This document shows, piece by piece, positions 1,323 to 6,621 of a DNA stretch of 35,860 bases (position 1 is its first letter; each line of letters begins with the position of its first letter). Where the stretch lies: positions 1 through 35,860 of the IMG/VR virus record IMGVR_UViG_3300003882_000001; one strand, given 5' to 3'. The notes beneath the pieces were generated by a model. The model made no database searches. It saw only the letters and a program-made list of their open reading frames with translations, and had not been told where the DNA came from. This DNA comes from a virus. A program made the position numbers and the translations under genes.

Positions 1323-3353
1323 ATGCAGTATGAGGGAAACATATTATGGCTGGAAGCCAAGGAACTGCTTGCGCTAGGATTAAGTGAGAACCTAATCAAA
1401 AATGGCATCTACCGAGCGCGCAATGGCGGTTTTTCTTGGCAAAACAAGCCTGACCCGATCGACGCAAGACGGAAGCTGATCAATTATGACACGATCCCGT
1501 CAACTACGATTGAGAAATATGGCATCCCCTCAAAGGCGCATTATCTAGCTAAACTGGAGCAGGATGCGCATCAAAACTCGAAGCACGAACTACGTGCGAT
1601 TGTGGGCAGATATGTGAGTCGTGAGGACATGGACTATTTCATCTCCGAAGGCTACTCGCCTGAAGAATCGAAAGGATTTGCCCAAACTGCCGCATGGCTG
1701 AGTCTCCTGGCAAATGTGCGAGGAAAGAATGATGTAAAAAACCTCGGGATAGAGGGTCTCAAGACAAAACTAGATGTGCTGAATCTGTCACTCGCTACGA
1801 TCATGGAAGATCCGCCTCACGGCCTGCACAACTGTACAAACGTGCAGGTGCTAAGAAAGAAGATGAGCCGATTCAGAGAGGCAGTAGAGGCAAGCCGTGC
1901 AGATGGTCTACGCACGCTGCGACACGGACTGAAAGGAAGAGCGAGCAACAAGCGCAAGATAGACGATCGAGTAGCTAAGATCCTCACCGCACTGTATGTG
2001 AATGAGGATAGCGACATAAAGCTGAACTATCAGCAGATCTTTGAATCATACGAATTGTGTGTCCTTAATAATGCTGTAGATGCAAGCAGTGGGGAGGTCT
2101 ACACGGACCTTCCCCATCTTCACCCATCGACGGTGAGGGCCTTCCTCGCAAGACCCGAGATGCGGATGCTGGACCACCTCCGACACGGAGACAAGCACTT
2201 CCGCGACGCTGTGAGACCTTATATAAAAGGACAGCGTGCGAAGTTTTCATTCTCCTTTACGTCTAGTGACGGCTTTGTGATGCCGTTTTGGTTGAAGAAG
2301 TCAGAGGTAGGCGCAGCGTGGAAGAGACCTTACTGCTATGTGATATTTGATACGCATAGCATGGCGATCCTTGGCTGGGCGATCGGGATGCAAGAGAACT
2401 ATGAGCTGATGCAGCGCGCATTCATAGACATGATACAGCGTACAGGTGGGAGAATGGCTGTGCACAATCAGCTCGACAACTTCAACAAGTTCTTCAAAGA
2501 TGAACTAGATCTCATCTCAGGCACGAAGTTCACAGCTCCCTACAATTCGCAGAGTAAGTATGCCGAGACATACATCGGTACACTCAAGTACACTGTCATG
2601 AACACCTATGAGGGATTCACGGGCAGGTACAGCAACAAAGACGCGAAGAACAGAAGGAACCCTGACAAGCCCAATCCAGCCACAGACGCACAGATGGGCT
2701 ATACATGGGAAGAGATGAATAAGCTGATGGAGTCGGCGATGAAAGTCTACAACTCCCGAAAGGAGAAAGGCAGCAGGTACACACGTGAGCAGATGCTACA
2801 GATGCACATCAATCCGAGTGCACCACAGCCTACAAACCTACAGCTTACACTAGCGTTGGGTTACCGCTCCAAGGCGACGATCGAGCGCGGGTACATCATC
2901 AAGGAGTACGAGGGTCAGACATACACGTATCAGATCCCAGACTATGCGACGGTACTCACCAAGCTCTCGCGACAGAGCCAGCGCGTGAGGGTACGATGGC
3001 TACCGCACCTACTCGGACAAGAGATACACGTGTACGACTACGACGGCAAGGATGATCCTGCACATGACACATTCATCTGCACGGCGATCTACCAAGAGGG
3101 TACGCAGCGCGCACCCACTGAGCAGAGCAAGGACTCAGGTAGAAACCTCGGGCGACAGCTACGCTGGCAAAGAGAGTTTGATGAAGCAGTAGCGGCACAA
3201 GAGGCAGCTATAAAAGACGCGAAGATCCTACCGCTGACTCCAGATGAGGCAGAAGATGTGCTCGCAGCAGGATATACAGATAAGCATGAGATGCAGGAGG
3301 CTGCGGATGTAGCCGAGCAATCAGAAAAAAGAAAAGTAAGCAGATGGCAGTAA
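1323..3353 (+). CDS. Mu-like DDE transposase (MuA type)
   Basis: This 676-residue protein catalyses strand cleavage and transfer for integration and replicative transposition. The retroviral-integrase fold lies at about 300-430. Candidate catalytic residues are D316 (SSDGF), D385 (QLDNF) and E415 (KYAETY), with the supporting strand IFDTHSMAILGWAIG between the first two. The N-terminal third (LWLEAKELLALGLSENLIKN) resembles the Mu-type DNA-binding start, and a C-terminal beta domain at about 500-600 fits the Mu-transposase C-terminal region. The acidic, Ala-rich tail (about 615-676) is where MuA contacts MuB and ClpX. Length is close to MuA (663). It is followed directly by a zinc-ribbon ORF and the B homologue. 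Confidence 0.93.
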   Translation: MQYEGNILWLEAKELLALGLSENLIKNGIYRARNGGFSWQNKPDPIDARRKLINYDTIPSTTIEKYGIPSKAHYLAKLEQDAHQNSKHELRAIVGRYVSREDMDYFISEGYSPEESKGFAQTAAWLSLLANVRGKNDVKNLGIEGLKTKLDVLNLSLATIMEDPPHGLHNCTNVQVLRKKMSRFREAVEASRADGLRTLRHGLKGRASNKRKIDDRVAKILTALYVNEDSDIKLNYQQIFESYELCVLNNAVDASSGEVYTDLPHLHPSTVRAFLARPEMRMLDHLRHGDKHFRDAVRPYIKGQRAKFSFSFTSSDGFVMPFWLKKSEVGAAWKRPYCYVIFDTHSMAILGWAIGMQENYELMQRAFIDMIQRTGGRMAVHNQLDNFNKFFKDELDLISGTKFTAPYNSQSKYAETYIGTLKYTVMNTYEGFTGRYSNKDAKNRRNPDKPNPATDAQMGYTWEEMNKLMESAMKVYNSRKEKGSRYTREQMLQMHINPSAPQPTNLQLTLALGYRSKATIERGYIIKEYEGQTYTYQIPDYATVLTKLSRQSQRVRVRWLPHLLGQEIHVYDYDGKDDPAHDTFICTAIYQEGTQRAPTEQSKDSGRNLGRQLRWQREFDEAVAAQEAAIKDAKILPLTPDEAEDVLAAGYTDKHEMQEAADVAEQSEKRKVSRWQ

Positions 3354-3469: not shown

Positions 3470-4378
3470 ATGGAAAACCTACTCAAACAAGAAATACAAG
3501 CGAAGGTGCGCGAGTACCTGGGCATACAGGAGGACGGCAGTGTATTGGCTGGACACCCATCACAGAGCCAGTTTGCCCACAAGCTAGAGATCGACAAAGG
3601 ATATGTATCCAAGATCGTGAATGGCAAGTGGACTGATACAGCACCGTCTGCCTCTGTGTGGTCCGTATTGGCGCGGTTCTTTGATATGAGCGCACATATC
3701 GATAGCGAAAACTATCTGAATATCACAGCAGCCTGTAAGATGTTTCAAGAGCAGGCGCGCAATGGCTGTATAGATGGCTACACAGGAGCTGGCAAATCCT
3801 ACGCGCTTGACAGATATGAGCGCATGAACAAAGGAGTATATCTGATCCGCACACAGTCCTACATGAATAAAGCTGACTTACTACACGTCATATCAGACAA
3901 GCTAGGAGTGACGCAGCACACACATACGAGCTACTTCAAGTATAAGTACATCATCAATAAGATCAAGTCGTCTCCCCATCCAGTGCTACTGATCTTCGAT
4001 GAGATAGAGTATCTCAAGCCGCACTTGTGGCATGACATCAAAGCACTCATGGATGAGCTAAAGCAAATCTGCGGCATCGTGATCTCTGGCATCTTTATGG
4101 AGAATCTGGAAGCTTGGGCCAAGAAAGAAAAGAAGGGTATGCCTCAATTCCTCCGCAGAATCAAGCACTCTAGAGTCATCATGTCACCTGTGAGTAAGCC
4201 AGATGTGCGATCGATCTGTAGTCAAAACGATATAGCTGATAGAGAGGTCATCACATGGCTCTACAAACATGCAGATAACTACGAGACGCTGGTGATGTAC
4301 GTCACAGACCTCGCAAGGCTTCAGCAAGGCGGGAATACTATCACGATCGAACTCTGTGCAGAACTATTTCAAGACTAA
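3470..4378 (+). CDS. MuB-like AAA+ ATPase, target-DNA activator
   Basis: The protein has 302 residues. Residues 1-75 carry a helix-turn-helix (SQSQFAHKLEIDKGYVSKIV), as in MuB. A P-loop NTPase follows, with Walker A GYTGAGKS (103-110, K109) and Walker B PVLLIFDEIEYL (171-182, D177/E178). RRIKHSRVI (229-237) could supply an arginine finger. In Mu the B protein polymerises on target DNA, stimulates the transposase and gives target immunity; the same job is inferred here from sequence and from the A-B gene order. Size matches MuB (312) and bacterial TnsC-like AAA_22 relatives. Confidence 0.88.
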   Translation: MENLLKQEIQAKVREYLGIQEDGSVLAGHPSQSQFAHKLEIDKGYVSKIVNGKWTDTAPSASVWSVLARFFDMSAHIDSENYLNITAACKMFQEQARNGCIDGYTGAGKSYALDRYERMNKGVYLIRTQSYMNKADLLHVISDKLGVTQHTHTSYFKYKYIINKIKSSPHPVLLIFDEIEYLKPHLWHDIKALMDELKQICGIVISGIFMENLEAWAKKEKKGMPQFLRRIKHSRVIMSPVSKPDVRSICSQNDIADREVITWLYKHADNYETLVMYVTDLARLQQGGNTITIELCAELFQD

Positions 4379-4383
4379 TCACT

Positions 4384-4647
4384 ATGACTTTTGAACGAAT
4401 GACCAATTACAACATAGAGCCTACACACTCTCGCAAAAAGTGGCAGCAGCGGCGAATCATCCAATGGGTATTTGTAGTCATGCTTGTATTGGGCGTCTCA
4501 TCCTGTGTAGTTACAGATTTAAATGACCGCCTAGAGAAGCTCGAAAGAAACAGCGGATATCCTGTAGAAATGCAGACGGACACCATCAAAAAAGGCGACA
4601 GTACGATCATCATTCAAAACTTTTACATCAAACAGAGAAGGCGATGA
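4384..4647 (+). CDS. Small membrane protein or lipoprotein
   Basis: An 87-residue protein with a charged N-terminus (SRKKWQQRR), one hydrophobic segment at about 26-41 (IIQWVFVVMLVLGVSSC) and a short polar C-terminal domain. VSSC ending at C41 satisfies a lipobox, so it could be a lipoprotein with a long n-region or a simple single-pass protein. The gene lies five bases after the MuB-like gene and its stop overlaps the next start (ATGA type), so it belongs to the early operon. Function is not recognised; a spanin-like lysis or superinfection role is possible but unsupported. Confidence 0.6.
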   Translation: MTFERMTNYNIEPTHSRKKWQQRRIIQWVFVVMLVLGVSSCVVTDLNDRLEKLERNSGYPVEMQTDTIKKGDSTIIIQNFYIKQRRR

Positions 4648-5333
4648 GCATCTTAGGAAAAATAATCAAGCAGCTATCAGGTGATGCATCGGCTGCGAAT
4701 CCAGACGTAGTGATAGAGCAACTACCAGAAGAGCAAAAAGAGTTTTTGGATCGCTTGGTAGATGCACGAATGGAGCAGACAAAAGGTATCCAGAGTAAGC
4801 GAAAGCATGAGTACGAAGCCAAGCGTGAAGAATTTGTAGAGCAGCTATTTGGTCAGGCAAAGGATATGTCTTTGCGTCTCCAAGAGTTTCAGGATCATGT
4901 AGCGGAGAGATTGGCAGAGTGGGAGCAAGTGATGACAGTCTATGGCGAGGACCCCAATGCAACAGGTAGCTACACGCTCACAGCAGGCGACATGCGCATA
5001 GAGGTCAAGTACAAGCGACAGTATGGATATGATGAGCGAGCCAACATCGCAGCGGAGAGAGTCAAGCAGTTCTTAGGCACGCGAGTCAAAGACACCACGA
5101 CATTCAACCTCATCATGTCATTGCTGGAGAGGAGTGATGACGGGCAGTTTGACCCACGCAAGATTCAGAAGCTGTACGGATATGAGACAGACTTCAATGA
5201 TCAGGATTATTCTAAGGCGATGGAGTTCTTTAAGGAGTCCTACGTGGTCCAAAAGACGCAGACTTATCATCACTTCAAGCATCGATCAGACAGCGGCAAG
5301 TGGGAGTATCTCCCGCTCAAGTATACAGCATAG
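4644..5333 (+). CDS. DUF3164-like early protein
   Basis: A 229-residue soluble protein. The first half (about 25-95) is a charged, probably coiled-coil helix rich in Glu, Lys and Gln. The second half contains DMRIEVKYKRQYGYDERANI followed by a helical segment ending in GTRVKD, which resembles the DUF3164 family found in Mu-like phages between the B gene and the Gam/GemA region. Biochemical function of that family is unknown to me. It closes the first early gene run; 40 bases downstream the tRNA island starts. Overlap with the upstream small membrane gene indicates translational coupling. Confidence 0.6.
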   Translation: MSILGKIIKQLSGDASAANPDVVIEQLPEEQKEFLDRLVDARMEQTKGIQSKRKHEYEAKREEFVEQLFGQAKDMSLRLQEFQDHVAERLAEWEQVMTVYGEDPNATGSYTLTAGDMRIEVKYKRQYGYDERANIAAERVKQFLGTRVKDTTTFNLIMSLLERSDDGQFDPRKIQKLYGYETDFNDQDYSKAMEFFKESYVVQKTQTYHHFKHRSDSGKWEYLPLKYTA

Positions 5334-5357
5334 TAGTAGTATGGTTTTTCATGGGCT

Positions 5358-5371
5358 CGCCCATTTGGGCG
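5358..5371 (+). other. Hairpin before tRNA-Met
   Basis: CGCCC (5358-5362) and GGGCG (5367-5371) form a five-pair stem with loop ATTT, ending three bases before the tRNA-Met 5' end. There is no T tract after it, so it is more likely a leader or processing element than a terminator. Confidence 0.5.
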
Positions 5372-5374
5372 GGT

Positions 5375-5446
5375 TGCGGGGTGGAGCAGTGGTAGCTCGT
5401 CGGGCTCATTACCCGAAGGTCGCAGGTTCGATTCCTGCCCCCGCAA
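5375..5446 (+). tRNA. tRNA-Met (CAT), initiator-like
   Basis: A complete cloverleaf: acceptor TGCGGGG (5375-5381) with CCCCGCA (5439-5445), D stem GAGC/GCTC, anticodon stem TCGGG/CCCGA with loop CTCATTA (anticodon CAT at 5407-5409), T stem GCAGG/CCTGC with loop TTCGATT. Discriminator is A5446 and CCA is not encoded. The GGG/CCC pairs at the base of the anticodon stem are the initiator hallmark, and the body resembles Bacteroidota initiator tRNA. Two features are odd: position 1 is T and can pair with A72 (initiators have a mismatch), and position 37 is T instead of a purine. It may be an initiator decoy or supplement. Confidence 0.9.
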
Positions 5447-5501
5447 CTGGTTAACAATGTTTTTTCCCTCGTTCTTTTCAAATGTTTAGATAGCATGTTC
5501 T

Positions 5502-5515
5502 CAGCCTTCGGGCTG
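5502..5515 (+). other. UUCG tetraloop hairpin
   Basis: CAGCC (5502-5506) pairs with GGCTG (5511-5515) around the very stable loop TTCG. It ends one base before the tRNA-like element starting at 5517. No T tract follows, so it is likely a fold element of the RNA island. Confidence 0.6.
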
Positions 5516-5516
5516 G

Positions 5517-5570
5517 GTCGTGGGGTGATCAGTTGGAGAGATAGCGAGTTCGATTCTCGCCCTCACGACA
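5517..5570 (+). ncRNA. tRNA-like element lacking an anticodon arm
   Basis: A 54-base element with a nine-pair acceptor-like stem, GTCGTGGGG (5517-5525) with CCTCACGAC (5561-5569, one G-T wobble), a small D-arm-like hairpin ATC/GAT with loop AGTTGGAGA, and a perfect T arm GCGAG-TTCGATT-CTCGC (5544-5560). A5570 sits at the discriminator position. The anticodon arm is missing: the D-like arm is followed almost directly by the T arm. It cannot decode a codon; it is either a deletion remnant of a tRNA or a minimal tRNA mimic recognised by RNase P or other tRNA-binding enzymes. Confidence 0.55.
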
Positions 5571-5577
5571 AAATCCT

Positions 5578-5651
5578 GCGGAGGTGACTTGCTCCGTGGG
5601 TGGAGTATCGGTACGGTAGTGTGTGCATGGCGCCTATCGGTTGCTGCCGAT
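5578..5651 (+). other. Two hairpins between tRNA-like elements
   Basis: CGGAG (5579-5583) pairs with CTCCG (5592-5596), extended by a G-T pair, and ATCGG (5636-5640) pairs with CCGAT (5647-5651). These add to the structured character of the spacer. No coding signal is seen in these 70 bases. Confidence 0.45.
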
Positions 5652-5659
5652 GCTTATCA

Positions 5660-5745
5660 GACAGGGACTCACACTTGGAGTCTGTAGCGCGCAGCGGACA
5701 AAAAGCAGAAATGGTGTGGTGGGGGTTCGATTCCCTCTCCTGTCT
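5660..5745 (+). ncRNA. Aberrant class-II-sized tRNA-like element
   Basis: GACAGGG (5660-5666) pairs with TCCTGTC (5738-5744) as an acceptor stem with one G-T, and GGGGG-TTCGATT-CCCTC (5721-5737) is a good T arm. The interior is not canonical: ACTC/GAGT (5667-5670, 5678-5681) could be a D stem, but no seven-base loop with T33 is found. The best anticodon-like hairpin, CTG-TAGCGCG-CAG, has A where T33 must be. Overall length (86 bases) is that of Leu/Ser tRNAs. I call it a degenerate or repurposed tRNA and assign no anticodon. Confidence 0.5.
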
Positions 5746-5778
5746 CATAAAATCGCAATCAAAAATGCAGCTGAAAGC

Positions 5779-5804
5779 CCCAGCAAAGAATCTGCTTTGC
5801 TGGG
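5779..5804 (+). other. Perfect 10-bp hairpin in RNA island
   Basis: CCCAGCAAAG (5779-5788) pairs without mismatch with CTTTGCTGGG (5795-5804) around AATCTG. No T run follows, so it is not a standard terminator. It is among the strongest stems in the island. Confidence 0.7.
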
Positions 5805-5853
5805 TATGAACGAGAACATGTGCTAGGTGATGATAGATGCACTAGGTAGTAGT

Positions 5854-5882
5854 GGCTCCGAGCTAGTCCAACTCGGAGAGCC
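5854..5882 (+). other. Hairpin preceding tRNA-Thr
   Basis: CTCCGAG (5856-5862) pairs with CTCGGAG (5872-5878), extended across a small AG bulge by GG (5854-5855) with CC (5881-5882). It lies ten bases before the tRNA-Thr 5' end. Confidence 0.6.
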
Positions 5883-5891
5883 TAAAGGACA

Positions 5892-5965
5892 GCCGAAGTA
5901 GCTCAATTGGATAGAGCACCTGTTTTGTACACAGGTAGTTGCGGGTTCGACTCCTGCCTTCGGCT
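5892..5965 (+). tRNA. tRNA-Thr (TGT)
   Basis: Canonical cloverleaf: acceptor GCCGAAG/CTTCGGC, D arm GCTC-AATTGGATA-GAGC, anticodon stem CCTGT/ACAGG with loop TTTGTAC (anticodon TGT, reads ACA and other ACN codons), T stem GCGGG/CCTGC with loop TTCGACT. Discriminator is T5965 and CCA is not encoded. All conserved positions look intact, so it is probably functional. Confidence 0.93.
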
Positions 5966-6203
5966 CTAGGTTTGTTTGGGTTATGATGAGTCCCCAGTCG
6001 CGAGGCTGGGGGCATTTAAACAGCCAAGAAAAACCAGACGAAGCCCTGTCTTAGGTGGTTTGGATCTAGATGTTTGTCATTGGGCATCGAGAAAACTGGA
6101 AGTAGGATGTTGCGCACCGAAACCTTTGAAGCCATACAATGACCCTAGCGAAACAGGGCACTAAAAGCAGCGCATGACGGCTCGGAAAGACGAGCAACTT
6201 TTT
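5966..6203 (+). ncRNA. Putative structured RNA with pseudoknot
   Basis: The 238 bases after tRNA-Thr fold well by eye. GTCCCCAG/CTGGGGGC (5990-5997, 6006-6013) is a strong hairpin. GCCCTGT (6043-6049) pairs perfectly with ACAGGGC (6153-6159) and encloses a domain in which GTCATTG (6076-6082) pairs with CAATGAC (6137-6143), while GGTTT-GG (6057-6063) pairs with CC-AAACC (6117-6124). The last two helices cross, giving a pseudoknot. GCTCG-GAAAGA-CGAGC (6180-6195) followed by TTTTT (6199-6203) may end the RNA. I do not recognise a known family; group I intron, tmRNA and RNase P motifs were looked for and not found. Confidence 0.45.
6180..6203 (+). terminator. Weak terminator-like hairpin
   Basis: GCTCG (6180-6184) pairs with CGAGC (6191-6195), loop GAAAGA, then AAC and five T. 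It lies ten bases before the next gene, so it may partly terminate the RNA island or act as an attenuator for the genes behind it. Confidence 0.4.
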
Positions 6204-6213
6204 AAACTGAGAA

Positions 6214-6621
6214 ATGAAAGTTATGAGTCTTAATCAAATACAACTGATATACACGCGTGCTTCGATGCTAGATATGGATCGAGCGGCTACCAAAGAGTGG
6301 GCGGGTTATCTGCTCGGTAGAGATGTGGAGAGTCTGAAAGACTTAACCTTCATTGAGCTAGCAGAGGTCGCAGATAATCTCAAGTTGACGATCGAGGAAC
6401 AGATGAAGCCCATGCGCAATAAGATATTGAGGATGTCCGATGAGATGGGCTGGAAGCTGCCAAACGGTAAGCTCGACTATCAGCGGATAAACAATGTGAT
6501 CATGAATCTGGGCACTACCAACCCACGCGAAAAGAAGCTATACGATCTCAAGAAGTCAGAACTCACAGCAGTACATCGTCAGATACGTGCGATGCACTCC
6601 AAATCAAAAGTCAATGCCTAA
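6214..6621 (+). CDS. GemA-like regulatory protein (DUF1018-like)
   Basis: This 135-residue, mainly helical, basic protein starts with a segment (LNQIQLIYTRASMLDMD) and a C-terminal module (KILRMSDEMGWKLPNGKLDY, then repeated LxxLKKSEL-type helices) that recall the GemA/gp16 family of Mu-like phages, which modulates host gene expression and DNA supercoiling in Mu. The resemblance is partial and judged by eye. The position in the early region of a Mu-like phage fits. ATG codons at 6214 and 6223 are both possible starts. The gene overlaps the following one by eight bases. Confidence 0.45.
   Translation: MKVMSLNQIQLIYTRASMLDMDRAATKEWAGYLLGRDVESLKDLTFIELAEVADNLKLTIEEQMKPMRNKILRMSDEMGWKLPNGKLDYQRINNVIMNLGTTNPREKKLYDLKKSELTAVHRQIRAMHSKSKVNA

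Follow-up and report, generated by a model that had tools for sequence, protein, structure and literature searches.

Anticodon-arm-less tRNA-like units as candidate operon punctuation in Mu-like phages of Bacteroidota

RNase P cuts hairpins made from an acceptor stem, a T stem and a T loop (review, PMC11143913), and is described as measuring the T-stem-loop/acceptor domain like a ruler, so that any RNA presenting this domain should be recognised and the D loop is dispensable (PMC4919913). Its substrates on record include phage C4 RNA, T4 gene 32 mRNA and operon mRNAs. The elements described here resemble the model substrates and external guide sequences of this enzyme, in which the acceptor is stacked on the T stem, with a T loop and no anticodon arm; however, the model substrates are synthetic and known to be cut (PMC11143913), whereas our minihelices are natural, repeated within phage operons and endowed with a conserved GG linker and an RCAA tail. 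tRNA punctuation, the precursor of the P1/P7 C4 antisense RNA and E. coli operon mRNAs likewise contain, within a longer transcript, a structure that is tRNA-like or can be cleaved; a processing role has been reported for the C4 precursor and the E. coli mRNAs, whereas we infer one for the phage minihelices. The tRNA-like domain of tmRNA also combines an acceptor with a T arm in the absence of an anticodon arm, but our units lack a tag reading frame, pseudoknots, G3.U70 and CCA, and the tmRNA model of Rfam matched just one T arm (13.6 bits). GOLLD and ROOL, as structured non-coding RNAs near phage tRNAs, share the setting of our locus but are much larger, with unrelated folds. In the literature searched, we found no description of an element of the minihelix kind, nor of a recurring 40-46-nt family located 5' of the MuA gene or past the DUF3164 gene, and no Rfam match was found for this family.

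The locus lies in a 35.9-kb virus record, analysed whole and referred to as the window, of a transposing Bacteroidota phage that we call Mu-like because it carries a MuA-type transposase gene. Its gene order runs from the MuA-type gene through MuB-type and DUF3164 genes to later head and tail genes, and the island under study is the gap at 5334-6213 between the DUF3164 gene and the following early gene; the short open reading frames in this gap are at most 69 aa and overlap the RNA units. The features discussed below are:

1323-3353, plus strand: MuA-type transposase gene (PHROG 310 transposase, E 1.3e-39)
3470-4378: MuB-type ATPase gene
4644-5333, plus strand: DUF3164 gene, directly 5' of the island (Pfam PF11363, E 4e-15; PHROG 846)
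5375-5447, plus strand: tRNA-Met (CAU), initiator-like (ARAGORN; Rfam RF00005, 67.3 bits)
5502-5515, plus strand: UUCG hairpin of 5 bp (fold of 5498-5516, z -3.4)
5519-5567, plus strand: TLE1, tRNA-like unit without an anticodon arm (structural scan 11.5 of 12; shuffles 0)
5575-5655, plus strand: two strong hairpins, 5575-5600 and 5603-5655 (fold of 5571-5658, z -4.2)
5660-5744, plus strand: TLE2, tRNA-like unit with an abnormal 54-nt middle (structural scan 11.0 of 12)
5779-5804, plus strand: 10-bp hairpin (surrounding segment z only -1.4)
5856-5878, plus strand: 7-bp hairpin
5892-5966, plus strand: tRNA-Thr (UGU) (ARAGORN; Rfam, 67.9 bits)
5967-6030, plus strand: hairpin centred on 5990-6013 (fold z -4.2)
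6180-6195, plus strand: terminator-like hairpin followed by T5, 5' of the next gene (not significant)
6214-6621, plus strand: next early gene, 135 aa, no family

The gap as a whole folds at -330.8 kcal/mol vs. -297.6 +- 6.5 in dinucleotide shuffles (z -5.1, 0/20), bearing out the comparison with shuffled sequence that an earlier note on this DNA had proposed, and the stretch between the two tRNAs (5448-5891) is likewise more stable than its shuffles (z -3.4, 0/100). This excess is uneven, being concentrated in 5498-5516, TLE1, 5571-5658 and 5967-6030, with the fold of 5747-5891 being unexceptional (z -1.4). The UUCG, 10-bp and 7-bp stems listed in that note are present where it placed them; the 8-bp stem it gave for 5990-6013 is also a hairpin but folds as 10 bp. 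As for other candidates in this region, a separate structured RNA at 6031-6175 was ruled out (fold z -0.1), a hammerhead-type reading of 5980-6013 plus 6150, suggested by GATGAG and CGAAAC words, was rejected on account of misfitting flanks and a silent Rfam, and terminator-like hairpins were as frequent as in shuffles (2 found vs. 2.0 expected), leaving the one at 6180-6195 not significant.

Searching Rfam 15 at curated thresholds, as the note had advised, returned only the two tRNAs from the gap, and the extra matches in a permissive search of the window were all sub-threshold. Both tRNAs (5375-5447 and 5892-5966) are canonical, with acceptor, D, anticodon and T arms (RF00005; ARAGORN and Rfam), so the note's placing of the island between two good tRNAs stands as far as the tRNAs are concerned, but tRNA-Thr sits inside the interval it reported rather than at the edge. 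The tRNA-Met owes its initiator look to GGG/CCC in the anticodon stem; it has U1:A72, and its anticodon loop, CUCAUUA, puts an unusual U at position 37. When the island was compared with phages and plasmids at the DNA level, tRNA-Met was the only part matched among the matches listed. The likeness to GOLLD and ROOL raised in the note fell away, with no Rfam 15 match even at E<=10 and with the recognisable units being tRNA-derived. No tmRNA was detected in the window by ARAGORN -m or Rfam, and a tRNA with an intron was rejected since ARAGORN with introns gave low-quality alternatives only. The note's idea of several uncharacterised non-coding RNAs proved right, in the form of two acceptor/T-arm units in which the anticodon arm is missing or abnormal.

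These two units, TLE1 and TLE2, are missed by the tRNA finders and were not called as canonical tRNAs by ARAGORN or by Rfam, the permissive search included, but on reading the gap four T-arm motifs, not two, are visible. We scanned both strands of the whole 35.9 kb for acceptor/T helices of 12 bp capped by a TTCRANY loop and obtained exactly four units, namely tRNA-Met, TLE1, TLE2 and tRNA-Thr, all within the gap and on the sense strand, as compared with 0-0.02 in shuffled windows. In TLE1, the acceptor (CGTGGGG/CCTCACG) has 7 bp, extendable to 9; an 18-nt linker, TGATCAGTTGGAGAGATA, which includes TTGG, replaces the D and anticodon arms; and the T arm (GCGAG-TTCGATT-CTCGC) is followed by the tail ACAAAA. 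The TLE1 segment is more stable than its shuffles (z -3.3), with the minimum free energy fold being an alternative hairpin (-23.7 kcal/mol) that is 3.3 kcal/mol more stable than the tRNA-like fold (-20.4 kcal/mol) in a calculation that ignores tertiary contacts. TLE2 comprises the acceptor GACAGGG/TCCTGTC, the T arm GGGGG-TTCGATT-CCCTC and an odd middle that includes a D-arm-like hairpin, and gives a weak, sub-threshold tRNA-Sec match (17.5 bits). Common to both are perfect or near-perfect acceptor and T stems forming a 12-bp helix, the TTCRANY loop, GG in the linker and the sense strand.

Close relatives of the window phage were found neither in single-protein scans (DUF3164, MuA, terminase and a 288-aa protein) nor among 395 genomes of the phylum. 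The wider family came from an alignment of DUF3164, which yielded 80 loci from viral contigs, followed by 30 more and 10 from genomes; scanning these loci revealed anticodon-arm-less tRNA-like units in the slot past DUF3164 and just 5' of MuA. The commonest form is an acceptor/T minihelix of 40-46 nt whose helix spans 11-12 bp, whose GG lies three bases away from the acceptor and whose tail reads R-CAA. In a length-restricted scan of 1.48 Mb there were 17 matches, 14 of them on the sense strand with a linker GG, vs. 0-1 GG-bearing matches in shuffles. A scan blind to the tail collected 62 distinct minihelices, in which 1) the helix measured 11-12 bp in 60/62; 2) GG lay 2-4 nt past the acceptor in 61/62; and 3) CAA began 12-14 nt past the T loop in 58/62. 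The base 5' of the acceptor and the discriminator do not pair in most cases (28 of 42). In tRNA, G18-G19 dock on the T loop. At L178 14045-14090 and L189 2596-2641, the TTCGA of the T loop has become AGGCAGGT and the linker GG is lost along with it, which would follow from GG docking there in the manner of G18-G19, although these are two related cases only. Forms of 54-116 nt (54 nt in L005, 56 nt in L082, 88 nt in L053, and L032) link the minihelix to tRNA-sized units such as TLE1, while a 76-nt unit at L059 is actually a 42-nt minihelix. The L032 unit (6358-6473, same as L110) is a composite: its 5' part resembles tRNA-Leu and has a T arm to itself, after which come another T arm and the strand that closes the acceptor, as if a tRNA had been fused into the punctuation slot.

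With respect to neighbouring genes, the minihelices lie on the MuA strand in the regions compared, and copies within one phage precede different genes, their T stems differing by compensating changes. In 48/60 elements the next open reading frame has its first ATG 10-40 nt downstream, as compared with 5.6% of random sense positions, and 33 of 68 elements start no more than 25 nt from the upstream stop codon; given that many thus have little promoter room, the minihelices are most likely transcribed within polycistronic messages. In slot, strand, helix length, T loop and GG, TLE1 and TLE2 agree with the family. TLE1 matches it in the N-CAA tail as well (CAAAA at 13 nt past the T loop, where TLE2 has CAT instead). 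Neither unit has the start codon of an annotated-size gene 10-40 nt downstream, the next such gene being that at 6214, 470-650 nt away, and the family's covariance model R2 matched only T arms in the window (up to 14.6 bits; those of TLE1 and TLE2 at 9-13 bits), with neither unit reaching the score of a full-length member. We treat TLE1 and TLE2 as tRNA-sized relatives in anatomy and position, not as scored members of the family.

Two covariance models were built, R1 from 9 sequences and R2 from 51. Covariation, for which the note had asked, came out strongly positive in the minihelix family: in the R2 alignment of 51 elements, 94% of cells are paired and the covariation score reaches 0.62 vs. 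0.13 when shuffled and at most 0.09 with slid partners. As the first seeds were chosen by pairing, part of this covariation is built in, and the genome search thus serves as the independent test. A blind R1 search of 197 genomes of the Epilithonimonas family found 24 positives, each of which carries a full-length MuA (a PHROG 310 frame of at least 600 aa, counted from the search output), a feature of only 47 of the 197 (hypergeometric P 4e-18). Around RNA matches from this draw and two further ones we fetched 40 regions, of which 36 contain MuA or DUF3164, three belong to other tailed phages (L190, L217 and L221) and one (L216) is the end of a contig and has an S24 repressor of phage type upstream; the element is therefore a phage element, mostly of Mu-like phages. 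It is also patchy, since positives numbered 1/395 genomes in the phylum draw (searched with R1; its centre genome only), 9/344 in the order of Carboxylicivirga and 7/296 in the order of Epilithonimonas, and since 64 hankyphage-type Bacteroides and other DUF3164 loci lack it, bar one weak partial match. This latter absence indicates that it is not essential to Mu-like phages.

Several individual loci deserve mention. L190, from a non-Mu phage, has two minihelices 66 nt apart (5194-5351) in an early region with SSB, Erf and primase/helicase. At L149, a DUF805b RNA (593-625; RF02914, 38.3 bits, above threshold) begins 4 nt past a minihelix at 550-589, bringing two different cis RNAs together in one leader. 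A gut group (L053, L080, L116 and L121) has past DUF3164 a common RNA stretch, GGTCGGTGT..CCCAGAC..GGAGAAAAGGGAACACGG, with no Rfam match, and then a last structure that varies between a tRNA-like unit, a minihelix and a plain hairpin, 5' of the same CAATGGCATAAGCCAGAAAC leader. ARAGORN calls of tRNA-Arg (L049 174-254) and tRNA-Asn (L053 5742-5822) fall on minihelix or tRNA-like units, and such elements may therefore be mis-annotated as tRNAs in phage records.

Starting from what was computed, namely the structure, slot and strand of the units, the rules for their tail and caliper, and their association with Mu-like phages, we surmise, with about an even chance of being correct, that the units are tRNA-like operon punctuation cut by host RNase P, possibly together with RNase Z. 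We favour this reading because the conserved features are those read by the enzymes that process tRNA 5' and 3' ends. The island would then be an array of tRNA-type processing units within an early polycistronic transcript, in which TLE1 and TLE2 may have retained only the parts read by RNase P and RNase Z, i.e. the coaxial acceptor/T helix, the T loop and the elbow GG. Cutting at the units by host tRNA-processing enzymes would free the tRNAs and part the MuA-MuB-DUF3164 message from the downstream genes, with the resulting pieces presumably gaining defined ends and differing stabilities; in related phages, a minimal 40-46-nt minihelix just 5' of start codons would do the same job. More broadly, we hold a tentative view, at slightly under even confidence, that Mu-like and a few other tailed phages of Bacteroidota use dedicated anticodon-arm-less minihelices of 40-46 nt as cis punctuation of their early operons, read by host enzymes that process tRNA, with the window representing an ancestral or elaborated form that includes tRNAs.

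A structural role independent of RNase P is conceivable, given that L116 of the gut group has a plain hairpin in place of the element. Along this line, the minihelix might be an uncut, tRNA-shaped 5'-UTR element that shields the mRNA or adjusts how the next gene is translated in hosts relying little on Shine-Dalgarno sequences, a proposition that accords with the closeness of the start codon (median 22 nt), the A-rich CAAA stretch separating the helix from the ATG and the hairpin substitution in L116; we nevertheless consider it unlikely, as the T loop, GG and 11-12-bp caliper are held far tighter than a generic stability hairpin requires, and TLE1 and TLE2 do not adjoin a start codon. For the window only, it is also distinctly improbable that TLE1 and TLE2 are decaying pseudo-tRNAs left from a longer phage tRNA array: while they are flanked by two intact tRNAs and TLE2 retains its D-arm-like hairpin, both have intact acceptor and T stems (11.0-11.5 of 12) with loss confined to the anticodon part, many unrelated phages show this pattern at the same slot, and TLE1 follows the N-CAA tail rule. 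Least probable of all, and rather doubtful despite the tRNA elbow features and the real tRNAs adjoining the window units, is that they are released, perhaps CCA-tailed, tRNA mimics acting in trans to decoy nucleases that target tRNA, modification enzymes or EF-Tu, since a phage has several copies, different in sequence and each linked to particular gene starts, which fits a cis role, the tail is R-CAA and not CCA, and the aligned acceptors show no common aminoacylation identity such as G3.U70.

If punctuation by host RNase P is indeed the function of these units, they would constitute a bacterial-virus counterpart of mitochondrial tRNA punctuation, reduced to the smallest RNase P substrate, as well as a portable natural element for cutting operons. 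They would also provide an RNA marker that locates Mu-like prophages without recourse to any protein, and would open to direct testing, in laboratory strains of Chryseobacterium or Elizabethkingia, how transposable phages adjust MuA post-transcriptionally relative to its neighbouring genes.
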